Shown here: positions 4,020 to 24,019 of the stretch, in pieces | Numbering within the stretch: the first letter of the stretch is position 1 | Layout: each line of letters opens with the position of its first letter | Virus record (IMG/VR): IMGVR_UViG_3300035695_000019 | Span: 1-25,512 of that record | DNA from: a virus | Length of the DNA stretch: 25,512 nucleotides | Direction: 5' to 3' (one strand) | The notes under the pieces: model-generated | The model's database searches: none | The model's input: the letters and a program-made list of their open reading frames with translations, nothing else | What the model was told of the DNA's origin: nothing | Translations under genes and position numbers: made by a program

Positions 4020-5422
4020 AGCAGGATGACCTTCGTATTGTTGGGCGCGGTCACGGGCGACTGATCGATATCGATGAACAGCTCGTCATTCGGCGCCACG
4101 ACGGTTTTCATCGTGCCGCTCGTGACGGTGTTCGTGGTGTCGACCGTCCACGAGAGCCCCGATCCGGAGACGATGGTGGTGCCGGCGACCACGCCGTTTC
4201 CGGTGATCTGCGCGCCGACGCCAATGATGCCGGAGGTGATCGAGGTGACCGTGAGCACCGTTCCGGTGATCGAGCCCACGAAGACCGCCGCCGGCTGGTT
4301 ATCGCAGCCGAGCTTAATGGTGATGATCTGCACCCAAGAGCCGAGAGCTGCGATCGCCGAATAGAATCTCGATGCGAATATGTTGGTGCCGATCCGCGCT
4401 CGCTGGCCTCCATCCTCGCCGGCAAACGCCGAGACGAAGGCGTTCTGAATCTGGAGCACGGCATCAGCCGGGATCGCCGGATTGTTGGCGATCGACACCA
4501 GCGAGGTGACGGTCACGGGAGCGGGCCGCTCGAAGGTGACGTTGTAGGCCGGAAAGGGTGGCGTATAGCCGGATTGCGAGTCCAGCACGACCACCGTGGT
4601 GTTGCCGTTATAGCCGCAGCCCGGGGATTTCTTCGTCCACATTGCGTGCGCGACGTCTGCATCCGATCCGCCCACCGCCGCCACATAGATTGAGTTCGGG
4701 GCAAGCAGGAAGCCCTTGATCGTCTGCCCGGTCTGATTGACGTTTTCGGTCACGAACGCGTCGAGCACACCGGGCACGCTGAGCACGGCGCCGAGCACCG
4801 AAGGCAGCGAACCCTGCGAATTTTGCGCTACCGAAAGCCGGCGCCGGTCCTCGAACTCCGCGCGTGTCTCGGTGTTGCGGCCGATCACGCCGTCCAAATT
4901 GTTGACCGCCGAATCCCATCCGTTGATCGACTGGAAGATCGTGTCGATGGTGCCGGCCGGGCATGACACCGGGCCCGGTACCGTGCATTCGAACGTCAGG
5001 TCGATGGTGCTGCTGGCCGGGATCGTGCCGCCATCCACGGCGCGATACTGATTGGCGCCGTCCGAGGACTGCACGAGAGCATTTTGCGGGATCACCACGC
5101 CCTGAAGCCCGAGGCATGTGACCGTCACCACGGTCGGCGCCGATGGAATGCGCTCGATGAAATAAATGCGCGCGATCGCATCCTGATAGCGGCCGATGTT
5201 GTAGGCCGGGTCCATCTGCTGAGAAAGGAACACGAACGAATCGTTGGCGTTGCCGATCGCCGCGGTCTGGCTCACCGCGAGCTGTCCCTGCGGGGTTTCG
5301 TCCGCCATGTTCAGATCGTTGCCGAATGCCGCGTTGATCTCTTCCTTCACGGCAACAAGGATGTCGGACTCAGCCGGAGCGATGAATCCGTTCGGACCAA
5401 AGGAAGGCTGAGGGACCGGCAT
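4016..5422 (-). CDS. Baseplate J-like wedge protein with an inserted beta module
   Basis: A 468-aa protein starting at ATG 5422, two bases after the gp25-like gene. It has the architecture of baseplate J/gp47 proteins: an N-terminal segment (SDILVAVKEEINAAFGNDLN, DETPQGQLA), the RYQDAIARIYFIERIPS region, a beta domain (VTCLGLQGVVIPQNALVQSS), the IGRNTETRAEFEDRRRLSVA signature, and the C-terminal LFIDIDQSPVTAPNNTKVIL. J-type proteins join the wedge to the central hub and help trigger sheath contraction. About residues 381-441 hold a Gly/Thr/Val-rich module (GSITGTVLTVTSITSG) just before the conserved C-terminus. This makes the protein longer than the roughly 400 residues usual for the family. 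The same module recurs in three other genes of this window. Confidence 0.9.
   Translation of the reverse strand: MPVPQPSFGPNGFIAPAESDILVAVKEEINAAFGNDLNMADETPQGQLAVSQTAAIGNANDSFVFLSQQMDPAYNIGRYQDAIARIYFIERIPSAPTVVTVTCLGLQGVVIPQNALVQSSDGANQYRAVDGGTIPASSTIDLTFECTVPGPVSCPAGTIDTIFQSINGWDSAVNNLDGVIGRNTETRAEFEDRRRLSVAQNSQGSLPSVLGAVLSVPGVLDAFVTENVNQTGQTIKGFLLAPNSIYVAAVGGSDADVAHAMWTKKSPGCGYNGNTTVVVLDSQSGYTPPFPAYNVTFERPAPVTVTSLVSIANNPAIPADAVLQIQNAFVSAFAGEDGGQRARIGTNIFASRFYSAIAALGSWVQIITIKLGCDNQPAAVFVGSITGTVLTVTSITSGIIGVGAQITGNGVVAGTTIVSGSGLSWTVDTTNTVTSGTMKTVVAPNDELFIDIDQSPVTAPNNTKVILL
4100..4282 (-). repeat. Gly/Thr beta module in baseplate J (copy D)
   Basis: About 61 codons encoding FVGSITGTVLTVTSITSG, then GVGAQITGNGVVAGTTI and NTVTSGTMKTV. 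The layout (F-x-G-S/T-x-x-G-x-x-L-T-V, then I-x-G-x-G-V/I-x-x-G-T, then a T-V-S/T ending) matches the modules found at 12431-12811, 13707-13904 and 14339-14536. It interrupts the otherwise normal C-terminus of a J-type protein. This copy lacks the TGTPGGVGTY segment seen in the others. Confidence 0.65.
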
Positions 5423-7683: not shown

Positions 7684-8316
7684 TCATCCACTCGCTGAAC
7701 CGCCCGTTCCGGGCTTGATCGTGATCGTGCCGCTTCCTCCGGTCCCGTTGGGAGTGACTTCGGGCGACTGGATGTTGCCGACCAGCGCCGGCTGGAAGGC
7801 GCTCGGCGACGCCACGTTCTGGAAGTTGTTGACGCCATCCTCGCGGATTTCGAGGAAGTGAACGTCCACGATCAGGAGCCCGAGTCCGTTGCGCGAGGTG
7901 CGCCGGTAGTCGTAGTGCTCCACATTGAGACTCGGATAGACCGCTGTAGGCGTCACGGCCGTGTAGAGCGTGAGCGGGTCTCCGATCGCCGCAATCGAAT
8001 CTAGGAGCGCCTGCCGGTTGGCCTCGCTCCCGCCGGCCACGAACTGGATGCGGATGCGAAAGGGCGAATTTACCTTGTCATAGCTTTCGAAGCCGCCGCG
8101 CTCGACAGGATAGTCCGCAACCGTCCAATCCTGCTGATATCCGAAGTCGGTAACGGTGTCGGCGATCACGACCGGGGTGGCGCCCTCATAGATGCCCCAC
8201 AGCGGCGGCTCGCCGGGGCCGTAGCCTATGAAGGTATCGCCAGCCAGCACGTTCGCGACGTTGAGGAACGTGATGGCTGGATCGAGCAGATTAGGAACGC
8301 CCGGCGGAAGCGCCAT
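7684..8316 (-). CDS. Baseplate/hub-associated protein of unrecognised family
   Basis: A 210-aa protein starting at ATG 8316, sharing one base with the tape-measure stop (TGATG). The core about residues 40-160 is beta/alpha mixed: ATPVVIADTVTDFGYQQDW, VERGGFESYDKVNSPFRIRI, a helix RQALLDSIAAIGDPLTLYTA, and GLGLLIVDVHFLEIRE. This pattern resembles tail-tube-initiator or hub-linker proteins that follow the tape measure. The last 40 residues are Gly/Thr/Pro-rich and look disordered, ending in GTITIKPGTGGSASG. Position between tape measure and plug is the main support for a baseplate role. I cannot name the family with confidence. Confidence 0.6.
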   Translation of the reverse strand: MALPPGVPNLLDPAITFLNVANVLAGDTFIGYGPGEPPLWGIYEGATPVVIADTVTDFGYQQDWTVADYPVERGGFESYDKVNSPFRIRIQFVAGGSEANRQALLDSIAAIGDPLTLYTAVTPTAVYPSLNVEHYDYRRTSRNGLGLLIVDVHFLEIREDGVNNFQNVASPSAFQPALVGNIQSPEVTPNGTGGSGTITIKPGTGGSASG

Positions 8317-10178
8317 CAGACCAACCCCGTGTTTGCGTTCTGCACGTTGTCATAGTCCGAGAGTCGGCGCGAGATGCCGTCAGCATAGGCGCTCGGGTCG
8401 GCGCCCTGCGGCACCGTGACGTTCATGCTGTGAATGTTCGTGGTCGAGGTGTTGCTGTTGTTGTTATTGTTGGTGTCCCCGCCGAGCGGGCCGCCTTTGC
8501 CTATTCCGAGATTTTGCCAGTTCTCGAAGGTGCGCTGCGCGCCCGTGAGGCCCGGGGTGAGCGTGCCGCCGGTCCCTGTCTTGATCGAGATCGATCCGCC
8601 ACCGCCACCGGCCGCTCCAGCCTGCATGCGCTCGCGATAGGCCGCAGCATCGCGATAGTCGCCCGCGCCGAAGCGCTCGCCTCCGTTCCAGTCGTTGAAC
8701 ACATTGCCGCCGCGCCGCATTTGCGGATAGCGCCACCCGTTGGGATCGGACGGTAGACCTTGATCCGTGTAGCCCTGCGTCACGTTGCTGCCGCCGCTCA
8801 CGGTGTCGATCGCAGCATTCATGCGCCCGGCGAGCCCCGGATTGTTGCTGAGCGTCGCGAGCGCGCCGGGAAGCTGGCCGCGGTTGATCGGTCCATAGAA
8901 TCCGGAGTTCAACATCTGGTCGACGGTGATCGGTGGAAGTCCCTTTTGCGATCGCATGCTGTTCACATATCCGAGCCGATTGGCGAGGCTCTCGACCACT
9001 GGCACCGGATCGCGCTCGCCTTCCAGCATCGCCATCCCTGCCACGCGCTGGCGCACGCCGGGGTCGGACATTTGGTCGGTGAAGCTCTGCCGCTGCTGGC
9101 GCAGAAAGTCCGAACCGCCGGGCGAGACTGTCCCCGGTGCTGAGCCGCCGCCGCCGCCTCCAAGGCCCTGCCATCGATCTTGGAATGATCCGGGAGCCGC
9201 TCCACCTCCGCCATTGTCACCGCTGGAACGCCCCATCAGCAAATTCCAGCCGCGCTGCATCAGTCCCGGCTTGTTGGCGTTCGGTGCCAGCTCCGGCATG
9301 CCCATCCTCCCCAAGCCCTCGCCCATGGCCTGCGGCGGGCTTTGGTTGCCGGTCGCCCATTTCGTCAGCCAGTCGGTCAGTAGATTGAGGATTCTTGTCA
9401 ACGTGGCGATGAACGGCGCGAGCGCTTGCTGTGTCAGTCGGTCGATGACATTCATCAGATCGCCGAACGCTTCGGTCAGCTTCGTGAATTTAGCGATCTC
9501 CTCGTCAGTCGGCGCGATCTGCCTCGCTTTATCCAGCCGCTTTTGCATCTCCTCTGGACCGAGTGCGAGAGTACTGATCGCGCCGCGGGATAGTCCTCCA
9601 CGGGTTTGCAGAAGATGCGAGGCAAACGCCTTGTCTGGCTGGCTTACATACCATTCCGAAAGCCGACGCATGATCGTGTCGCCGGTGTCGGTTGGCTTCA
9701 TCGGCCCGATACCAAGCCCACCGCTGGCCCTGTCCCTGCCCATAAGGGCGGCGAGTTCGCTGGTTCCTGTAGCCTTAAATTCCTGAACTTGCGCATTCAC
9801 CGAAGACAGGGCTTGGCTCATCTCGCCGGCAGTGGCCCCGACCGTGCGTCCCACCTTTTCCCACGCATCCAAGTCCTGCGCTGAGATACCGAGCTGTTTC
9901 GACATATAGCCGAGTTCGGTAGTGGCCTTCGTCACCTCCTGCGTCAGCCGATTGAAGCCGAGCCCCGCCGCGACGATCGCGGCGATCGAGAGCATCCGCC
10001 CCTGCAATTCCTTGAAGGCCGAGGTCATCTCGTTGACGCGGCGGGTCGTGGTCTGGCCGTGCTTGCGGCTCGAGTCCTCCAACTCCTGAAGGTACTTGAT
10101 CGACTTGCGCTGTTCCTCGTTGAACTGCTTCGCATCGAGGTTGAGCGTGACGACGAGGGAATCGATGACGGTCGGCAT
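8316..10178 (-). CDS. Tail tape measure protein with a possible peptidoglycan-hydrolase-like domain
   Basis: A 620-aa protein starting at ATG 10178 with a GAGGGAGA site. The N-terminal 270 residues are mostly helical and typical of tape measures: VIDSLVVTLNLDAKQFNEEQ, a coiled coil (RKSIKYLQELEDSSRKH), a hydrophobic helix at about 62-76 (MLSIAAIVAAGLGF), TTELGYMSKQLGISAQDLDA, and ALAPFIATLTRILNLLTDWL. Two Gly-rich linkers (about 322-347 and 521-540) enclose a compact Trp/Tyr/Gly-rich domain (369-516) with GMAMLEGERDPVPVVESLAN and GWRYPQMRRGG. That domain could be a wall-degrading domain, though this is uncertain. The tail end (NIHSMNVTVPQGADPSAYAD) is a common tape-measure terminus. At about 0.15 nm per residue the whole protein would match a tail below about 90 nm. 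Confidence 0.8.
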   Translation of the reverse strand: MPTVIDSLVVTLNLDAKQFNEEQRKSIKYLQELEDSSRKHGQTTTRRVNEMTSAFKELQGRMLSIAAIVAAGLGFNRLTQEVTKATTELGYMSKQLGISAQDLDAWEKVGRTVGATAGEMSQALSSVNAQVQEFKATGTSELAALMGRDRASGGLGIGPMKPTDTGDTIMRRLSEWYVSQPDKAFASHLLQTRGGLSRGAISTLALGPEEMQKRLDKARQIAPTDEEIAKFTKLTEAFGDLMNVIDRLTQQALAPFIATLTRILNLLTDWLTKWATGNQSPPQAMGEGLGRMGMPELAPNANKPGLMQRGWNLLMGRSSGDNGGGGAAPGSFQDRWQGLGGGGGGSAPGTVSPGGSDFLRQQRQSFTDQMSDPGVRQRVAGMAMLEGERDPVPVVESLANRLGYVNSMRSQKGLPPITVDQMLNSGFYGPINRGQLPGALATLSNNPGLAGRMNAAIDTVSGGSNVTQGYTDQGLPSDPNGWRYPQMRRGGNVFNDWNGGERFGAGDYRDAAAYRERMQAGAAGGGGGSISIKTGTGGTLTPGLTGAQRTFENWQNLGIGKGGPLGGDTNNNNNSNTSTTNIHSMNVTVPQGADPSAYADGISRRLSDYDNVQNANTGLV

Positions 10179-11332: not shown

Positions 11333-13321
11333 TTATTGAACTTCGATGCTGGCGAGCGTGATCGCCTGCACGGATTGACCATCAGTGTACCACAGAGTGC
11401 AGGGCGGGCTCGCGCGCGCGGCGCGCACCTGCGGCGCAGCATCCGAAATCTGGAGATACCAGCCGCGCTGCGAGATCGTGCCCGCCACATCGACGCCGGC
11501 CGAATTGTTCACCTCGCTGATTTGCGCGTTGGAGAGCGTGATGCCGGGCCGGATCGCTCCGAACAGGATCGCCGCATCGATCGGGTCGAGGCAAGCCGCC
11601 TCGATCTGCGCATAGCCCGTGTTGTTGTAGGGAATCGAGAAGACGGTGAACAACAGCTCCATGATCGCCTGCTGGAGCGCGTTGTTCAGCCAAATCTGGT
11701 TGATGTAGGTGTCGGCCCACTCGAACGGTCCGGAGATGGTGCCGCGATTCCAGCCGATGAACTGCTGGCTGCGCGTCGCATAGACGCCATAGAAATTATA
11801 GCCGTTGCCGAACTGGCCGATCGCCTGCGGATCGCCCGCGAGATTATGCGCGACCGTCTGATTGGTGACATCCGCCACGAGCCCGGTCTGCGACTTGAAC
11901 GCGATCGTGATGCGGCCGTTGCGCTGCGTGAAGTCGATCGAGGCCACTTCGCCGAGGAAGAACGCCGCCTTGATCGGGCCCTGCGTGGTGTCGGGAGCCC
12001 AGATCACATAGGTGCCTGACGAATTGTTGGATTGCAGGATGCCGCCGAAGCTAGCCGGCGCCGGGAACGTGTTCGTGGCAGTGATGTCGGTGTCCCACGC
12101 GGCGTAGCAATAGCCGTCGTTCGTGGAGTTCGTCCACGCCGAGAACGCCTGCTTCTGCGTGCTCGCCACGCCGAAGTCGGGATCGATCAGCGTCATGAAG
12201 GTCGCCCAATCGCCCGTAATAGCGGTGAGCGCGGTCATGAAGCCGCTCGGCGTCTGGCCGGCGGAGCCCTGCGAGATCACAGCGCCATCCGCCGATCGCA
12301 GGTTGAGGCTATCCGCCGTGGTGCCGGTCGCAAAGGCCATCGTGGACGGCGTGCCGCCAACGATCACGCCCGAGGTGATCAGGTATCCGCCGGAGATCGA
12401 ATCATAGGTGACGGTCACATTCGTGCCGGCACCCGTGATCGTGCCGGACGAAACAACCGTGTTCGAACTGAGGAAATAGGTTCCGGTCAGACCGATGCCC
12501 GTGCCGAGCTGGGTGATCTGCGTGCCGGCCGTCATCGTGCCGCCCGCAAGCGTCTGTCCCACCGACAACGTGCCGAGGCTGTTTGCCGTGACCGTCATCG
12601 TGCCATAGGTGCCAGCGATCGCCGTGGAAACCACGACTTGGCTGAGATCGACGGTGTAGAGGCCAACGCCGCCCACAGTGCCGGAAATCTGTCCGGTGAT
12701 CTTCGTGCTCGCGGTGACGCCAGTGCCTGAGATCGTGGTGCCGGCCACGATCGTGCCGGTCGTAAGTGCGGTTACGGTGAGGATTTGACCCGCGATCGAT
12801 CCGGTGAACGAGGACGTCGATGCGGCCACCGAGGCCGTGCACGACATGATGTTCGGATTTGCTGCGCCGGCATTGAGCGCGGTCTGGATCAGCGCGGCCG
12901 CGGCTGAAAAGCTGGATGCGCCCGAGAGGTTCAACGCCGCCGCGGAGCGCGGATAGCCGTCGATCGTGATTGCCAGCGTGCCGGAGATCGCCTGAAGCTG
13001 CGGGATCGTCAGGCCGGCCACCGAGCCGCCGCGCAAGAAGGCGTCCACCGCCCCCTGATTGTATTGCGCGAACAGAAGCGAGCCGGGCTTCTTGTGCGAA
13101 TTTTCGAATCCGTTGAAATAGATCGTGGCCAGCGAATTTTCGAGCGAGGCGGGGCCGAAGTAGGTCGAAACATCTGCCGGGCTCGCGAACTGAAGCACCT
13201 GACCGATCGGAGGCCGTGTGCTCGACGTCAGCATCAGCCCGATCATATCGAGCGCTGAACCGCCGGCAGGAAGGACTCCGGGATTTACTTGAACGATATC
13301 TCTTGCCGGAATGGTCGCCAA
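11333..13321 (-). CDS. Tail sheath protein, DUF3383 family, with inserted beta modules
   Basis: A 662-aa protein. The start is TTG at 13321, supported by AGGAGG five bases upstream. The N-terminus (ARDIVQVNPGVLPAGGSALD, FASPADVSTYFGPASLENSL, ATIYFNGFENSHKKPGSLLF) and the later GDWATFMTLIDPDFGVAST, NGRITIAFKSQTGLVADVTN and C-terminal GIT-type strand region fit the DUF3383 sheath family. Sheath subunits polymerise round the tube and contract at infection. The protein is about 150 residues longer than I would expect for this family. The excess is at residues 171-297, where two Gly/Thr-rich beta modules separate SCTASVAAS from the conserved VTVTYDSISGGYLITSG. They probably project from the sheath surface. 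Confidence 0.9.
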   Translation of the reverse strand: MATIPARDIVQVNPGVLPAGGSALDMIGLMLTSSTRPPIGQVLQFASPADVSTYFGPASLENSLATIYFNGFENSHKKPGSLLFAQYNQGAVDAFLRGGSVAGLTIPQLQAISGTLAITIDGYPRSAAALNLSGASSFSAAAALIQTALNAGAANPNIMSCTASVAASTSSFTGSIAGQILTVTALTTGTIVAGTTISGTGVTASTKITGQISGTVGGVGLYTVDLSQVVVSTAIAGTYGTMTVTANSLGTLSVGQTLAGGTMTAGTQITQLGTGIGLTGTYFLSSNTVVSSGTITGAGTNVTVTYDSISGGYLITSGVIVGGTPSTMAFATGTTADSLNLRSADGAVISQGSAGQTPSGFMTALTAITGDWATFMTLIDPDFGVASTQKQAFSAWTNSTNDGYCYAAWDTDITATNTFPAPASFGGILQSNNSSGTYVIWAPDTTQGPIKAAFFLGEVASIDFTQRNGRITIAFKSQTGLVADVTNQTVAHNLAGDPQAIGQFGNGYNFYGVYATRSQQFIGWNRGTISGPFEWADTYINQIWLNNALQQAIMELLFTVFSIPYNNTGYAQIEAACLDPIDAAILFGAIRPGITLSNAQISEVNNSAGVDVAGTISQRGWYLQISDAAPQVRAARASPPCTLWYTDGQSVQAITLASIEVQ
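12431..12811 (-). repeat. Two tandem Gly/Thr beta modules in the tail sheath (copies A1, A2)
   Basis: Codons 171-297 of the sheath encode two related units. The first runs FTGSIAGQILTVTALTTG, ISGTGVTASTKITGQ, TVGGVGLYTVDLSQ. The second runs TMTVTANSLGTLSVGQTLAG, TAGTQITQLGTG, LTGTYFLSSNTVVSSGTI. Each follows the same order as the module in the terminator, the 202-aa protein and baseplate J. The two units differ enough to suggest an old duplication or separate arrivals. Confidence 0.7.
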
Positions 13322-13373: not shown

Positions 13374-14114
13374 CTATGGAGGATAGTGCGAGTCGATCTC
13401 GATCAGGCCGATGTGCACGGCATCCATAAATTGCTGACCGACCTGCGCGATGTCGTTCACCTGCATGCACGCATCGAGCACCCACCGCCACTCGTATTGC
13501 TGCTGATCGTTGATAAACGGCTGTTGCGCCGGATCATCCGCGTAGAGCGGCGTCACGTCCGGACCGAGAGCGCCGAAGAAGCGCGTACCATATTCGCTAC
13601 GAAAGAGCGTCGAAGCGGTCATCGCCATGTCGCTGGAAGAAAGATCGGCGGAATGGAAATCGAGCTGGATGGTGGCGCTAGCGGGCTGAAGATACTGCCA
13701 ATAGCCCGAGGCGAGCGTCTCGGCGGAAATCGTCTGGCTATTGCCGAGCTGATAGGTGCCGACTCCTCCCGGTGTGCCGGTGAGCTGTGACTTGATCCGC
13801 GTGCCATCCGCAACGCCCACGCCATAGAGGAAGCGCCCGGTCAGGATCGTGCCATGTAGCAAAGTTGCGACCGTCAGCACGTCGCCGGCAACCGAGCCTG
13901 TGAATTTCACATCGAATCCGGTGCCGCGATTGGTGGCAAGTCGATCGATCCGAATCGGTGTCATCACCACGAAGTTCGTCGTCTTCGGCTCGGGCACCCG
14001 ATTCGGCTGCGCGGCGATCACTTCGGTGCCGTCCGGTAGCACATCAAGCAGGAAGGCGCGCAGCGATTGCAGCGCGTCCGATTGTGAGGGGGCGAGGGCG
14101 GCAACGGTGGGCAT
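13374..14114 (-). CDS. Tail terminator/neck protein, with inserted beta module
   Basis: A 246-aa protein starting at ATG 14114 (TGATG with the previous gene). The flanks match a known neck/tail-terminator family: N-terminal LRAFLLDVLPDGTEVIAAQP, then NRVPEPKTTNFVVMTP; C-terminal ATIQLDFHSADLSSSDMAMT, LFRSEYGTRFF, LYADDPAQQPFINDQQQYEW. Terminators cap the finished tube and sheath and join the tail to the head. Between the two flanks, at residues 71-136, lies a Gly/Thr module (FTGSVAGDVLTVATLLHGTI to LTGTPGGVGTYQLGNSQTIS). Removing it leaves a normal length of about 180 residues. The gene stands directly upstream of the sheath, as expected. Confidence 0.8.
   Translation of the reverse strand: MPTVAALAPSQSDALQSLRAFLLDVLPDGTEVIAAQPNRVPEPKTTNFVVMTPIRIDRLATNRGTGFDVKFTGSVAGDVLTVATLLHGTILTGRFLYGVGVADGTRIKSQLTGTPGGVGTYQLGNSQTISAETLASGYWQYLQPASATIQLDFHSADLSSSDMAMTASTLFRSEYGTRFFGALGPDVTPLYADDPAQQPFINDQQQYEWRWVLDACMQVNDIAQVGQQFMDAVHIGLIEIDSHYPP
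13707..13904 (-). repeat. Gly/Thr beta module in the tail terminator (copy B)
   Basis: Codons 71-136 encode FTGSVAGDVLTVATLLHGTI, VGVADGTRIKSQLTGTPGGV and GTYQLGNSQTISAETLAS. It lies between two conserved halves of the terminator and aligns with the modules at 12431-12811, 14339-14536 and 4100-4282. The nearest relative is the copy in the next gene upstream, sharing the string TGTPGG-GTY. Confidence 0.7.
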
Positions 14115-14722
14115 CAGGGAGACGAAGCCTTGTAGAACGAGACGTCGAGCAGGCCGCCGGCCGTGGCGTCGATGAACTTCATCGCCGAGAGCGTGCCCGA
14201 ATACATCATTGGAGTAGGCTGCGCCGAGAGCAACAGCATGCCGTTCGTGGTGGTCGGGTTCGCGCCATCATCGCGCCAGCGGATGTTCTGGGTTTCCGCC
14301 TGTATCAGCGCGGCATTGGCGCCGAATGGCGGGCCCACGGTGGTCAGGGAGGCTGCCGAGGAGGTGCAGGATTGCGTGACCAGATAGGTGCCGGCGCCGC
14401 CGGGCGTGCCCGTCACCTGCGAGCCGATCCGCGTGCCCGCCGTTATGCCGGTGCCTGTGACCGGCCAGCCCGCCCCTATATCGCCGGTAACGGAAGAGGC
14501 GGTGAGGGTGGTGCCGGCGCAGGTTCCCGTGAAGGATGCCGCCACGCAGGCGCTCAGATCAACAGCGGAGGCCAAGGATGCGGCCGGCGTCTGGCAGTAC
14601 CCGATAGGGGTAACGGACATGCCGGCCTGCATCTGGGCCGCGGCCGGCCCGGGAAACAGGCTCACAAGCCAAATGGACGCCGCGATCAGCGGGCCGGCCA
14701 GTATGGAACGGAACTTTTTCAC
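14114..14722 (-). CDS. Signal-peptide protein with Gly/Thr beta module, unknown role
   Basis: A 202-aa protein. The start is GTG at 14722, with AGGAG eight bases upstream and the previous stop 11 bp away; this removes an upstream, unsupported extension. Residues 1-29 are a clear Sec signal peptide: MKKFR, hydrophobic SILAGPLIAASIWLVSLF, then PGPAAA before Q30. The mature part has four or more Cys (GYCQTP, LSACVAA, TGTCAGT, QSCTSS), unusual among its neighbours and fitting disulphides in the periplasm. Residues 63-128 hold the Gly/Thr beta module also seen in the sheath, terminator and baseplate J. The C-terminus (NIRWRDDGANPTTTNGMLLL, MKFIDATAGGLLDVSFYK) looks like a surface-domain fold. It could be an exported or virion surface protein. 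Confidence 0.7.
   Translation of the reverse strand: MKKFRSILAGPLIAASIWLVSLFPGPAAAQMQAGMSVTPIGYCQTPAASLASAVDLSACVAASFTGTCAGTTLTASSVTGDIGAGWPVTGTGITAGTRIGSQVTGTPGGAGTYLVTQSCTSSAASLTTVGPPFGANAALIQAETQNIRWRDDGANPTTTNGMLLLSAQPTPMMYSGTLSAMKFIDATAGGLLDVSFYKASSP
14339..14536 (-). repeat. Gly/Thr beta module in the signal-peptide protein (copy C)
   Basis: Codons 63-128 encode FTGTCAGTTLTASSVTGDIG, VTGTGITAGTRIGSQVTGTP and GGAGTYLVTQSC. The match to the copy in the following gene includes TGTPGG-GTY and GTRI-SQ at the same spacing. This copy is unusual in having Cys residues. Confidence 0.7.
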
Positions 14723-14733
14723 GGGGCGATCTC

Positions 14734-16968
14734 CTAGTCCGGGGTTTGGCAGGCCAAATGGGCCCACAGGCTGAGTTTCTGGCCGTCCGAGCATTGTGCA
14801 ACGCATTGCAGGCGGTAGGTCACCTCGCCGATCATGCTGCCGACCATTTGCCCCACCGCCTGATTGGCGAGCCCGCTGTTCGGAGATGGCGCGAGCACCG
14901 AGGGGCCGATCAGCCGCGCGGTCGGGGTGGGATCGGTCCCCTCGAACACATCGCAGGTGAGCGCGAGCACCGCGGTGATGATCACACCCGGCTGAAGGAT
15001 CAGCCCGAAATCGAACGTGACCGTCTCAAACTCCACGGTTTCATCGATCGGCGGAAGCAGATTGTTCGTTTGCGACACGTTGTTGCTAATCCCCACGACG
15101 ACTCGCTCACGGCGCAACGCGGTAGAAACCATGAATCGCCCCGCATCGACCGCCACTATACACCGTCGCCCGCCGCGCGCGATATAGTTCGGGGAGAACG
15201 GGACGTTGAAGTAGACGTTGATATTGTAGGCCGGGATCGAGGGCTGCTCGATCCGCAGGCGCCGGCTGATCGACCAGTCGATCGGGACGAATGGCGGCTG
15301 CACTGGCTGCACGCCGCTGCGGAGCGCAATGTTAGGGATATCGAGCTGCCGCGCCGAGACGAGATTGCGCCGCACCGACCAGTCGATCGGCGTGAAGGGC
15401 ACCGCATAGAGCGAGATGTTGAAGTGCGGCAGCGCGCCACGAGCGCTTGGCGCTCTGCGCGTGACCGGCCAATCATCCGGCGAGAACGGAAGCGGGTTCG
15501 TGAACAGATTGATGTTGATCGCATCCTGCTGCCGCTGAGGAACGGCAGGCAGGCGCACGGGCTTCGACCAGTCGAACTGCGCGAAGGGCGCCGGAGGAGC
15601 CCCGGTGTAGAGGTTGACGTTGAGCGGGAGCGGCGCACCCGGGACGGTCGGCACCCGGATCGGTTTTATCCAATCGAGCTGCGCAAACGGCTGCGGGTTC
15701 TTATAGAAGTTCGGGTAGTTCGGCTGCTGCGTGACCGGCCGGCCGAGAGGTGGCACGAACGGATGTAACCAATCGTACTGCGCGAAGGGTTGCGGATTCG
15801 ACAATAAATTAATGTTCGGCGGCTGTGCCGGTGGCAGGAACACAGCAAATCGCGTCTTCGACCAATCCGTTTGATGGAACGGGATTTCGAACAGCCAGAT
15901 GGCCTGATCGGAAAATCCTTCACTTGGAATGATGGGCCTGACGCGAGGCCAATCGGTCTGCGCGAAAGGCTTAGCTGTGACAGTCGGTATCGCAATATTT
16001 AGATTGTAGGGCCGCGCCTGTGGCGGCGAGCTAATGACCGAGAAAGGCTTCGACCAATCGAACTGCGCAAAAGGCAACGTGATGTCGATGATTCCCCCAG
16101 CCACCTGAGCCGACGGGAAATATCGATTGCCGAATGGAGCCGCCCAATTGGTTTGAGAAAATGGCGCAGCGGTGACGGTGACCGTGTAGATGTTTTGATT
16201 GTATGCCGCCTGATCCGGCGCAATCCTTCTGACGGTATTTGCTTTGGGCCAATCCGTCTGGCTGAATGGAATCTCGAAGGACCAGATCGCCTGATCCGAA
16301 AAACCCTCTCTCGACCCGACCGGAGAAACTCTCGGCCAATCGGTCTGTGAGAACGGCGCGGCAATGGTCGGGCTGTACAGATTTAGATTGTAAGGCTGTG
16401 CCGGCGGCGGTGATGAGTCCACCGTTTGCACGCGCGCAGACCAGTCATCCTGACTGAAGGGCACCCCGGAATAGATCAGGATGTTGTAGGGCTGCGGTGG
16501 CGGCAGGAAGTCGGGCAGTCTGAAAGCGTTCGACCAGTCCACCTTAGAGAACGGCGTCGTGGTGGTGACGCTGCTCGTAAGCACGAGCGCGTTCTGCGGC
16601 GATCTCCGCGGCAGGAAGTCCGGTGTCCTGAAGACCGACGACCAATCCGGCGGAACAAACGGCTTCGTGTTCTTGAACAGCTCACTGTTAAAGCGCGCCA
16701 TCCGCGGCGCGCTCAAGCGCACGCGCTGCGATGGAATTAGGAGTTGCCTAGAATTGTTGTTCGGGATCGGGTTCGTGAACCGACCGATATTGGTATGAAC
16801 CTGATCCGGCGCCGATGTCTTGACCCTGTAAGGGCCGTCCGACATGTCGATGTTGGCGATCGGCACGGCGACGATCGCCGTCAGCAACGCCATGCTTGAC
16901 CCGAGCGCCTGCCAAGAGGACGGAGCGATGTCCCTCGGAGGTGTGATCAGTGGCGTTCGGATTGTCAT
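14734..16968 (-). CDS. DW-repeat protein, presumed virion surface/fibre protein
   Basis: A 744-aa protein of no family I can name. The ATG at 16968 is chosen over an in-frame TTG nine bases earlier because AAGGG lies nine bases before the ATG and directly abuts the TTG. Residues 22-40 hold a hydrophobic stretch (SSMALLTAIVAVPI) that is not a typical signal peptide. Residues 104-598 are an array of 16 units, each 29-36 residues, with P-F-[AS]-Q/P-x-D-W-[SP]-[KR] followed by a Pro-rich stretch and N-[IL]-N-[LV]-[YF]. The C-terminal 100 residues form a different domain (FDFGLILQPGVIITAVLALT, QMVGSMIGEVTYRLQCVAQC, SDGQKLSLWAHLACQ), the pattern of an Ig-like phage surface domain. A fibre, decoration or adhesin role is inferred from context. 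Confidence 0.75.
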   Translation of the reverse strand: MTIRTPLITPPRDIAPSSWQALGSSMALLTAIVAVPIANIDMSDGPYRVKTSAPDQVHTNIGRFTNPIPNNNSRQLLIPSQRVRLSAPRMARFNSELFKNTKPFVPPDWSSVFRTPDFLPRRSPQNALVLTSSVTTTTPFSKVDWSNAFRLPDFLPPPQPYNILIYSGVPFSQDDWSARVQTVDSSPPPAQPYNLNLYSPTIAAPFSQTDWPRVSPVGSREGFSDQAIWSFEIPFSQTDWPKANTVRRIAPDQAAYNQNIYTVTVTAAPFSQTNWAAPFGNRYFPSAQVAGGIIDITLPFAQFDWSKPFSVISSPPQARPYNLNIAIPTVTAKPFAQTDWPRVRPIIPSEGFSDQAIWLFEIPFHQTDWSKTRFAVFLPPAQPPNINLLSNPQPFAQYDWLHPFVPPLGRPVTQQPNYPNFYKNPQPFAQLDWIKPIRVPTVPGAPLPLNVNLYTGAPPAPFAQFDWSKPVRLPAVPQRQQDAININLFTNPLPFSPDDWPVTRRAPSARGALPHFNISLYAVPFTPIDWSVRRNLVSARQLDIPNIALRSGVQPVQPPFVPIDWSISRRLRIEQPSIPAYNINVYFNVPFSPNYIARGGRRCIVAVDAGRFMVSTALRRERVVVGISNNVSQTNNLLPPIDETVEFETVTFDFGLILQPGVIITAVLALTCDVFEGTDPTPTARLIGPSVLAPSPNSGLANQAVGQMVGSMIGEVTYRLQCVAQCSDGQKLSLWAHLACQTPD
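15175..16662 (-). repeat. Array of 16 PF-x-x-x-D-W protein repeats
   Basis: The Trp of the motif recurs at spacings of 36, 31, 35, 29, 35, 30, 35, 29, 31, 33, 34, 33, 30 and 35 residues, and a last degenerate unit (PFSPNYIA) lacks it. Fourteen units have D-W, one has N-W. Between motifs lies a Pro-rich stretch and a strand-like segment such as YNLNLYS, ININLFT or FNISLYA. The DNA copies have diverged, so this is an old array rather than a fresh expansion. Confidence 0.85.
15688..16461 (-). repeat. Higher-order duplication inside the DW-repeat array
   Basis: Two blocks of 129 codons (16075-16461 and 15688-16074) align as a unit. The strongest stretch covers units 3-5 against units 7-9: both contain PYNLN, then QTDWPR, then EGFSDQAIW and FEIPF-QTDW. 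The second half of each block is more diverged. This shows growth of the array by duplicating about four units at once. Confidence 0.65.
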
Positions 16969-16980
16969 GACGAGCAACCC

Positions 16981-21553: not shown

Positions 21554-21916
21554 TTAGGGGAAAATGAGTTTGCTTGGGCTGCCCATCATCGATTTCGCAG
21601 CTTTGGTGTGGAGTTCGTCGACCACCTGCACGAAAGGCTTGTGGACGTATCCGGGCTGGGTGCGAATGAAATCGCAGCCATCGCAGATTTAGTGTCCCTC
21701 GCGGTTGTTGCACTCCATGCACAGCGCGCGCGGGCGAATGCGATCGGGATGTGGAACGACGCATGCGTTGCAGTGAGAGCAGCAAAGTGTCTTCGTCTCG
21801 TAGACCTTGCCCTCTCCGACGAGCTTGGGATCGTAGCCGGCCCATCGCGCAACATCCTCCGGCAAGCCCGGGGAGGCGCGGTGATCGACCATCAGATATC
21901 CCATCTCTTTCGGCAT
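21554..21916 (-). pseudogene. Zinc-ribbon protein gene interrupted by an in-frame TAA
   Basis: An ATG at 21916 opens a frame of 75 codons that stops at TAA 21689-21691. Reading through the TAA, the same frame stays open for 44 more codons (to TAA 21554-21556), ending 24 bp before the next gene. The Cys pairs span the stop: C46-x2-C49 (CSHC), C66-x2-C69 (CMEC), then after the stop C78-x2-C81 (ICDGC). Similar phage proteins that I recall have a CGHYICD-type string here, so the TAA likely replaces a Tyr codon (one base change from TAC or TAT). The N-terminus GYLMVDHRASPGLPEDVARW agrees with that family. Function unknown; a zinc-binding virion or assembly accessory is likely. Sequencing error, real truncation and readthrough are all possible. 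Confidence 0.7.
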
Positions 21917-21919
21917 GCT

Positions 21920-22324
21920 TCAGTTTCCGTACTGCACTGATTTGTCGTTTTGCAGGGTCGTGGCTACCTTTGCCCAATCGCCCCATTGCTCCAGCACCAT
22001 CGCGACAAGATATACGCCCGCATGCGCCCCGGTGGCAATCGTGATCAGATCGCCGCCCTTTTTCTGCACGCGAACGAGGCCGTCGATTTTTCCGTTTAGA
22101 TAAATTGCGACGCGCGTGCCTTGCAGATTGAGGTGCTCGATCTGCTGGATGTCACGGAAGGAAAGTGCCTGAACCTGCGCACTTACAGGGATCGGCGGCA
22201 CTTGGAATTTCGCGACTTGCGTGCCGTCCGGATTGGTCGAGCTGCCACTGCTCAGCGATAGCGTGGCCGGTGTCCACGGATTGACCGCCGACACCACAGG
22301 GCCCGCTATCGCGTTGAGGTTCAT
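21920..22324 (-). CDS. Conserved-looking phage protein of unknown function
   Basis: A 134-aa protein starting at ATG 22324. The N-terminal part is extended (LNAIAGPVVSAVNPWTPATL, SSTNPDGTQVAKFQVPPIPV); the C-terminal half has a regular alternation of strands and turns: VQALSFRDIQQIEHLNLQGT, RVAIYLNGKIDGLVRVQKKG, GDLITIATGAHAGVYLVAMV, LEQWGDWAKVATTLQND. This looks like a small barrel-type virion protein of the head-tail or tail region. It lies three bases before the broken zinc-ribbon gene. No enzyme motif is visible and I do not name a family. Confidence 0.65.
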   Translation of the reverse strand: MNLNAIAGPVVSAVNPWTPATLSLSSGSSTNPDGTQVAKFQVPPIPVSAQVQALSFRDIQQIEHLNLQGTRVAIYLNGKIDGLVRVQKKGGDLITIATGAHAGVYLVAMVLEQWGDWAKVATTLQNDKSVQYGN

Positions 22325-22345
22325 GACAACCCGCCCGAATCAGTC

Positions 22346-22900
22346 TCAGAGCCGGTAGAGCGTCCAAGCGCCCGCGCCGGTCTTGCGTGCTCGGAAGCGG
22401 CCCGAGACTGCCGTCACCACCGTCATGGTGCCGACCAAGGTCCATCCCGCCGCGGTACCGACCGTGAGCGTGTTGGGGCCGGTGTTGACGATCGAGAAAT
22501 CGAACGACGAGTTATTTGGTGCGGAGGCACCAAACGCCGTGTCGAGATTGGCTGCGGTGTCGAGCGTGGCCGCCACAGCGGCAGCGGAGGTGGTGGTGAC
22601 AAGGCCCGTGAGCATCAGCGCGGCGGTGAGCGTTCCGGTCGCGTTCAGGGTACCGGGAGTCACCTGCGAACCGATGCTGCCCGATCCGCTCTGACCATCC
22701 AGCACCCAAACCGCAGCGCCGACCGATGCGGACATGCACATCCACGAGCGCCCGGCCGTGGTGTTGATCCACTGCGATCCCACCGAATAGTTCTGCGAGC
22801 TGTCATTGGTGACAAGCGGGTCGGTAGTGGCCGCAAGGTTGTTCGTCAGCGCAAGATTGAAGGGAATGTCTCCGATCGGCGTGAACATGGTGGAACGCAT
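22346..22900 (-). CDS. Presumed virion surface protein
   Basis: A 184-aa protein. ATG 22900 is preferred to the ATG at 22888 because GAGGAG lies about ten bases before the former and nothing resembling a site precedes the latter. The segment YSVGSQWINTTAGRSWMCMS followed by GAAVWVLDG is a pattern common in phage fibre and decoration proteins. The middle is Ala/Thr-rich (LTAALMLTGLVTTTSAAAVA), and the C-terminus is a beta domain (NTLTVGTAAGWTLVGTMTVV, SGRFRARKTGAGAWTLYRL) often found in capsid- or fibre-associated proteins. It follows the tail-completion gene after a 67-bp gap, the longest between intact genes except that created by the broken gene. Confidence 0.65.
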   Translation of the reverse strand: MRSTMFTPIGDIPFNLALTNNLAATTDPLVTNDSSQNYSVGSQWINTTAGRSWMCMSASVGAAVWVLDGQSGSGSIGSQVTPGTLNATGTLTAALMLTGLVTTTSAAAVAATLDTAANLDTAFGASAPNNSSFDFSIVNTGPNTLTVGTAAGWTLVGTMTVVTAVSGRFRARKTGAGAWTLYRL

Positions 22901-22967
22901 GGGATGGTTCTCCTCAATCTGCCAAGATACGCGGCCGGGTTAATTGTGAACTGGAATCGTCGCGAAC

Positions 22968-23510
22968 TTACTTCAGCTTCACCTCGTAGTCCACGGACTG
23001 AAGCAAATGGCCGGTTTCGACCAGCGGCTTCGAGGAAACGCCGCCCGTGGATTCACCCGCCGCGACACGGCGCGCCGCTTCGCCGAGGCTCGCGCGCGTG
23101 ATCGTCTTGCCCTCGCCCTTCATCTTGCGGATCATCAGCGTGATCGGGGAGAGCGGCGGATCGTTGGTATCCACGATCGATTGCCGGAGCTGGCCGGCGA
23201 TCGCAGCGCCCGTCCGGTCGAAGGTGGCCTTGACGTCGAAATTCGTTTCGCGGAGCTGCGTGGCAAATCCATCCGGCCATTCGTCCTGATGCTTTGCGAT
23301 CATGTTGCGGAAGAATGGTCGCGGCGGGATGCCGGCGGCCGGGGCACCGAACTCCTGAATGGCCGCGATCATCGCGACCGGCTTGCCGTCCGGATAGGTG
23401 GCGTTCTCCAGAAATCCCACGCGCAGCTCGGCGCCCTGATTCACCTTGGTGGCGATCTGCTCCAGATATTTCTTCAGCTTGTCGCCGCCCTTGATCTCGA
23501 CCGCTGTCAT
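22968..23510 (-). CDS. Neck/tail-completion protein
   Basis: A 180-aa protein. The start is ATG 23510, which overlaps the preceding stop by four bases (ATGA); longer readings of the frame would run far into the connector gene and are rejected. Its features fit HK97 gp10/Mu gpG-type tail-completion proteins: an N-terminal helix (GGDKLKKYLEQIATKVNQG), a strand ELRVGFLENATYPDGKPVAM, the motif IQEFGAPAAGIPPRPFFRNM, a long helix, and the ending KPLVETGHLLQSVDYEVKLK. These proteins work at the head-tail interface. The order connector, then completion protein, is standard. Family placement is by motif only. Confidence 0.8.
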   Translation of the reverse strand: MTAVEIKGGDKLKKYLEQIATKVNQGAELRVGFLENATYPDGKPVAMIAAIQEFGAPAAGIPPRPFFRNMIAKHQDEWPDGFATQLRETNFDVKATFDRTGAAIAGQLRQSIVDTNDPPLSPITLMIRKMKGEGKTITRASLGEAARRVAAGESTGGVSSKPLVETGHLLQSVDYEVKLK

Positions 23511-24019
23511 GACCAGAACCGCCTTCCGAAGCCCGGCCGCGGGCCCGGCACGATCGTGGGTGTCGCGTAATACTGGAACGTGCGGAGCGCCTTGGTCATC
23601 TCCCAATAGGCCGCGCCGTACTTGGTCTGCATGTAGTACGCCTGCGAGAAGGTGCCGCCGGTCGCCTGCATGTCCGTCTGCACCGATACCGAGCCCTGCG
23701 AGGCCGAGCTGATGCGGCCCACCACCTGCGGCGCCGCCATCGCGCCTTGCTGGCCGGTCGGGTTGCCGTCCTGATCGCGCGGGGCAGAGAGATAGCCGAG
23801 GTGCGCCGTCAGATAGTAGAGCGCCTGCTGTAGCATCCAGTTCGTACCGCCACCCTGCCGGATCAGCGGGTTCGAGGCGGAGTTGTCGCACATCGTGGAA
23901 GCTTGCAGAAACCAGCTCTGGCCCTGCTGTGACGTGCAATTTCCGAACTCCGGAAACAGACTTTTGAAATCGGCATCATCGTAGGCGATGACCGCATTAG
24001 CGGGTGCGAGCAGCGTCAT
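23507..24019 (-). CDS. Head-tail connector protein, DUF4054-like
   Basis: A 170-aa protein starting at ATG 24019 with AAAAGGA about nine bases upstream. It overlaps the end of the 68-aa gene by 23 bases. The helical N-terminus with DDADFKSLFPEFGNCTSQQG, then ALYYLTAHLGYLSAPRDQDG, the RISSASQGSVSVQTDMQ segment and the C-terminal YYMQTKYGAAYWEMTKALRT match the DUF4054 adaptor pattern. Such proteins bind the portal or connector ring and prepare it for tail joining. Position directly before the completion gene agrees. Length is normal. Confidence 0.8.
   Translation of the reverse strand: MTLLAPANAVIAYDDADFKSLFPEFGNCTSQQGQSWFLQASTMCDNSASNPLIRQGGGTNWMLQQALYYLTAHLGYLSAPRDQDGNPTGQQGAMAAPQVVGRISSASQGSVSVQTDMQATGGTFSQAYYMQTKYGAAYWEMTKALRTFQYYATPTIVPGPRPGFGRRFWS

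Follow-up and report, generated by a model that had tools for sequence, protein, structure and literature searches.

A PF..DW repeat protein of uncultivated phages is linked to two small conserved genes beside head genes of many capsid families and possibly belongs to a capsid-decoration cassette

The genes for a zinc-ribbon-like protein (ZNR), a small all-β protein (FQV) and a protein built of evenly spaced PF..DW motifs are linked on one strand in viral contigs, where they stand beside capsid genes of unrelated families. We tentatively favour, at a probability that we put somewhat below even, the reading that these genes form a capsid-decoration cassette, in which the repeats form an extended chain that attaches to FQV or the capsid by way of its motifs and presents adhesin domains; the repeat protein would then form the distal component of a phage-head cassette that is itself mobile. 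The conserved trio is absent from the libraries searched and from 50,697 phage records examined by tblastn, and it recurs across capsid families.

The window, by which we mean the whole stretch of DNA analysed (25,512 nucleotides), is a virus contig of 25.5 kb. It is a myovirus fragment, on which PHROGs placed tail sheath, tape measure and neck genes together with genes for the baseplate hub, the baseplate wedge and tail fibres; the tail genes begin at 14114. The repeat gene is flanked by neck genes and by a tail terminator gene (PF23961), in a block that lacks family matches. Its position among structural genes supports the earlier view that it encodes a phage protein. Coordinates are collected in Table 1, which includes a small domain similar to phrog_21413/phrog_38233 that four different proteins encoded in the window have in common. 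The repeat protein of another contig, L003, begins with the same domain.

Table 1. Features of the window discussed in the text, in order of position.
Feature	Position	Strand	Remarks
phrog_21413/phrog_38233-like domain	4085-4312	(-)	in baseplate wedge protein
Tape measure	8316-10178		PHROGs
Tail sheath	11333-13321		PHROGs
phrog_21413/phrog_38233-like domain	12617-12832	(-)	in tail sheath
phrog_21413/phrog_38233-like domain	13713-13910	(-)	in tail terminator
phrog_21413/phrog_38233-like domain	14333-14548	(-)	in 230-aa protein
DW-repeat protein gene	14734-16977	(-)	747 aa with TTG start; 744 aa with ATG start (16968)
C-terminal β-sheet domain, residues ~650-744 (744-aa form)	14737-15021	(-)	Ig/adhesin-like, low confidence
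16 PF-units (14 PF...DW, 1 PF...NW, 1 degenerate PFSPNY)	15175-16662	(-)	spacing 29-36 aa
Cargo gene, 697 aa	16981-19074	(-)	no family match; tailspike/β-helix-like by eye, N-terminus 'YGALGDG...'
Cargo gene, 237 aa	19074-19787	(-)	similar domain at 10 loci, sometimes fused to repeat protein
Cargo gene, 240 aa	19799-20521	(-)	no family match; lectin/Ig-like by eye
Cargo gene, 154 aa	20539-21003	(-)	relatives in L103 and L086 cassettes
FQV gene, 171 aa	21014-21529	(-)	all-β, jelly-roll-like; constant neighbour of DW-repeat genes
ZNR gene	21689-21916	(-)	zinc-ribbon-like, VDHRASPG signature; directly upstream of FQV
Neck or completion proteins	21920-24019		PHROGs

The preliminary description gave the repeat gene as 14734-16968 with 744 residues, which is correct for the ATG start, and omitted the strand, which is the minus strand. 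The 16 units that it reported, 29-36 residues apart over 15175-16662, were recovered with exactly that span. Numbered on the 747-residue form, 14 exact PF...DW motifs and one PFSQTNW lie at residues 106-562, and a degenerate sixteenth copy, PFSPNYI, lies at residue 593; the spacings between the first 15 motifs are 36, 31, 35, 29, 35, 30, 35, 29, 31, 33, 34, 33, 30 and 35. Shuffled sequences of the same composition contained on average 0.006 motifs and at most one (2000 shuffles), so an array of 16 units is real. The features that had been ascribed to every unit are less uniform than was thought. The D-W pair is exact in 14 of the 16 units and is altered in the PF...NW and PFSPNY copies, Ala or Ser follows PF in 12 of the 16, and the N-[IL]-N-[LV]-Y-like strand is clear in about 11 of the 15 inter-motif segments. 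Identity between units averages only 30%, which indicates an old array, while the best pair (units 5 and 9, 76% identical) points to a later duplication within it. The protein is rich in proline (13%) and aromatic residues, and is not basic. It had no match in Pfam, PHROGs, NCBIfam or PDB sequences, and a literature search on the motif strings returned nothing relevant.

A relative was found in IMG/VR, and scans were made with a loose two-motif DNA pattern. The pattern matched 65 viral stretches in IMG/VR against 19 contigs in a genome collection; nearly all of the latter were chance matches, with real arrays in two contigs, both of one Ignavibacteria MAG. Removal of near-duplicates left 70 distinct proteins with 448 units, the consensus being PF-x-Q-x-D-W-P-[NL]-P and the spacing 33.3 ± 2.3 residues. 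Motif positions that the search expression left free are conserved too (Q 74%, P+7 65%, P+9 69%), and a hydrophobic stretch lies directly before it, at positions -8 to -3. The spacers, in contrast, are near background composition and have almost no positional conservation, yet their length is constant. Whole units have been gained, lost or reordered between close relatives (L008 vs L087, L009 vs L073). Among 45 complete proteins, 11 have an N-terminal region of at least 120 residues and eight a C-terminal region of at least 100. Scans of 45 relatives against Pfam, PHROGs and NCBIfam gave only isolated matches and no recurrent repeat family; in one relative a terminal region matched a BNR-repeat family. 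The earlier statement that no described repeat family fits therefore holds for the relatives as it does for the window protein. Searches of the 50,697 INPHARED records by tblastn gave no match for four repeat proteins and the C-terminal region of the window protein, nor for three FQV queries and one ZNR query, although the low-complexity filter of BLAST may conceal weak matches in these searches. Judged from these sequence comparisons, the repeat family is large and missing from the family libraries searched (Pfam, PHROGs, NCBIfam).

The preliminary description took the regular strand-plus-turn pattern to suggest an extended β rod or solenoid, closed by a C-terminal Ig-like domain. An AlphaFold2 monomer model of the full repeat protein, made with 40 family sequences, had a mean pLDDT of 40.6, and its array was devoid of strands, with only turns of three to four residues at the motif. 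This does not back the rod, and comes close to the result that the preliminary description had itself named as counting against it. The pLDDT of about 40 over the array may stem from a poor, gappy alignment or, the modelling having covered monomers, from a fold that exists only in the oligomer. Foldseek was uninformative on the array, for which there was no usable fold. A C-terminal β domain is plausible, though each indication of it is weak, and its fold may be Ig-like. Residues ~650-744 were modelled as a β sheet at moderate pLDDT values of 57-77, and all Foldseek matches of the repeat protein fell in this part, none of them below E 1e-3; the best was an adhesin ester-bond domain (E 5.8e-3), and VIA matches reached a Z of at most 5.4.

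These data bear on the strongest rival explanation, in which the array is an ordered fibre shaft and each 33-residue unit contributes a strand and a PF..DW turn to a rod, oligomeric and probably trimeric, with adhesin domains at its ends. The nearly fixed unit length (33.3 ± 2.3) speaks for such a shaft, as do the hydrophobic stretch ahead of each motif, which frequently resembles N-[LI]-N-[LV]-Y, and the non-repeat terminal regions of many members, and phage fibres commonly model poorly as monomers. On the other side stand the strandless array at pLDDT ~40 even with 40 relatives, a proline content of 13% with spacers almost free of positional conservation, and the lack of any match among solved structures or repeat families. 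We consider an ordered shaft unlikely on this balance.

Comparison of the neighbours of repeat loci revealed a conserved two-gene partner module that the preliminary description had missed: FQV and ZNR recur above all other genes. Upstream DNA of at least 4 kb was available for 31 repeat loci; FQV was present in all of these and ZNR in 29, on the same strand as the repeat gene. The gene order is ZNR, FQV, variable fibre or lectin genes and then the repeat protein, and ZNR, FQV and the repeat gene keep this order in nearly all 31 loci (exceptions L043 and L037). A reciprocal scan, from which 80 loci were kept, was seeded by FQV only and is therefore independent of the repeat. ZNR was found at all 78 FQV-seeded loci with upstream DNA, directly adjacent to FQV in 69, and a repeat gene with at least three units at 36 of the 51 loci having 4 kb downstream. 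Fourteen loci were without any unit match. Eight of these were read by eye, and six contained degenerate relatives of the motif, such as YDWPNP or DQPNPRG; no relative was found by this reading in L149 and L192. The contigs of three more of the 14 (L109, L112 and L120) have a degenerate or minimal repeat gene, again by eye. Shortened degenerate repeat proteins (L109 9178-10119, L112 10505-11359) share a C-terminal tail resembling RRAxELAxYGPEVE...ILREIL, which may be another anchor.

Neither FQV nor ZNR matched a Pfam or PHROGs family at the cut-off, and a search with FQV of 397 genomes of a Rhizobium's order gave a single weak match containing three internal stops. The invariant residues of FQV are G47, N118, G121, G122 and E169. 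FQV proteins reach 92% identity in pairs of contigs where the repeat proteins share only ~30%. In the window itself, an in-frame TAA (21689-21691, minus strand) cuts ZNR short at a point where its relatives read on, and the homologous frame extends past it towards FQV; decay, a sequencing error or a shortened working form are all possible.

The genes that directly precede ZNR gave matches to ten or more different major-head-protein PHROGs, along with portals, head proteases and terminases, showing that one cassette has been joined to many capsid lineages. From these neighbourhoods the cassette appears to be mobile among phage heads. Encoding within the head module holds for the cassette generally, and its exact position differs between contigs: it lies between portal and scaffold in L109, after the major capsid gene in L001, and in myovirus-like head/neck regions in L120 and the window. 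Both podovirus-like and myovirus-like contigs carry it. It is this distribution that makes it improbable that the repeat protein is a tail- or baseplate-borne adhesin fibre whose gene merely lies near head genes. Fibre-like genes do adjoin it in the window, with tail genes from 14114, and one intervening gene of L001 matches a tail-fibre PHROG, but the cassette follows head genes of many families in podovirus-like and myovirus-like contigs, whose tails share little. Less probable still, the protein may work inside the head and be ejected along with the DNA, or serve as an assembly factor that is later discarded; this would suit the extended, unfolded prediction and the head-gene location but not a proline/aromatic-rich, non-basic composition, the terminal regions of many members or the BNR-repeat match of one.

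The decoration reading draws in part on the predicted structure of FQV. AlphaFold2 gave an all-β, jelly-roll-like fold with a pLDDT of 89.8, and its neighbours among solved structures, which include satellite-virus coats, ExsF and a Pam1 capsid chain (Z 5.6 for the last), are jelly rolls; Z values up to the observed maximum of 7.2 are at the level of a common fold. The ExsF structure was determined together with a peptide from its anchor protein. In BFVD, a neighbour is a 191-residue protein of phage LIMEzero, probably ORF57 by its length, with no clear function. FQV would be a decoration protein of the capsid surface and serve as the surface anchor, while the repeat region would be an extended proline-rich chain laid along the shell. 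Its evenly spaced PFxQxDWP[N/L]P motifs would dock singly, each on one of many FQV copies or capsomers, and docking sites set at regular intervals would suit the near-constant spacer of ~33 residues. The non-repeat ends, here a putative C-terminal Ig-like domain, may display binding domains for contact with the host or another surface, and further domains for display may come from the variable fibre or lectin genes that lie between FQV and the repeat gene. ZNR probably assists assembly or folding, or acts as a small structural partner. We infer the virion location, the contact of FQV with the motif, and adhesion.

Similarity of FQV proteins correlates with that of the repeat proteins (Mantel r 0.27, 0/500 permutations), more weakly so when ZNR is taken into account (partial r 0.16). 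The residue after DW is Pro in most other FQV clades, and in the clade of the window it is mainly Ser, with a minority of Pro. Both the correlation and this shift are consistent with contact, but shared ancestry alone may explain them. Further points weigh against the decoration reading, among them the other causes, named above, that the low model confidence of the array may have. The jelly roll is a common fold, and the matches of the FQV model are middling (Z ≤7.2). The regular unit length and the hydrophobic stretch before the motif exceed the needs of a pure docking array. Finally, the repeat gene of the window lies between neck and tail genes, not beside the major head gene. A bolder form, a novel type of polyvalent shell 'staple' in which a motif array with measured spacer threads across the copies of a dedicated jelly-roll partner, and a mobile three-gene cassette provides interchangeable head adhesins across unrelated capsids, is in our judgement rather doubtful.

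Arrays of this kind have parallels elsewhere. The DPF/DPW arrays of Eps15 and epsin achieve multivalent docking through numerous short aromatic/acidic motifs that an unstructured chain carries; they are eukaryotic, irregularly spaced and unrelated. Among proteins of the phage head surface, T4 Hoc, T5 pb10, N4 gp17 and phi29 gp8.5 resemble the proposed system in surface display and a suggested host-contact role, but they are folded domains or coiled coil and not a motif array, and no sequence similarity to these four was found. The first three are Ig-like head decorations (PMC7602432). The same article describes P30 of PRD1 as proline-rich, mostly disordered and extended along the capsid, much like the chain proposed here, although PRD1 is an unrelated membrane-containing virus and the passage on P30 describes no repeated PF..DW motif. 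In phage 7-7-1 (PMC12796354), an unstructured linker chain contacts the β-rich decoration protein gp002, and an Ig-type domain on one linker is proposed to start a head fibre. Linkers LP1/LP2 of that phage are similar to our proposal in that a low-structure chain touches a β-rich decoration protein; they differ in being disulfide-linked, and the section consulted reports no PF..DW array for them. The phage records searched gave no sequence match. Decorations of the phage head and extended linkers on capsids have precedents; what the searched catalogues lack is the motif array with its dedicated partners.

If the cassette is truly a head decoration, it would show very different capsids adopting one modular system for the display of binding domains. 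An odd repeat gene is in any case turned into a testable interaction, that of a motif peptide with FQV, and the family would allow many unannotated genes in uncultivated phages to be named.

Two minor observations concern the breadth of the family. Contigs L017 and L033, from the Ignavibacteria MAG (JAPUKJ01 bin), carry the repeat array, and L017 also carries ZNR and FQV; either the system extends beyond phages of Proteobacteria or a stray phage contig is present in the bin. The repeat protein of L057/L059 combines two repeat types, its PF..DW units being interleaved with copies of another one, LEAGSYSITGADLTPL.
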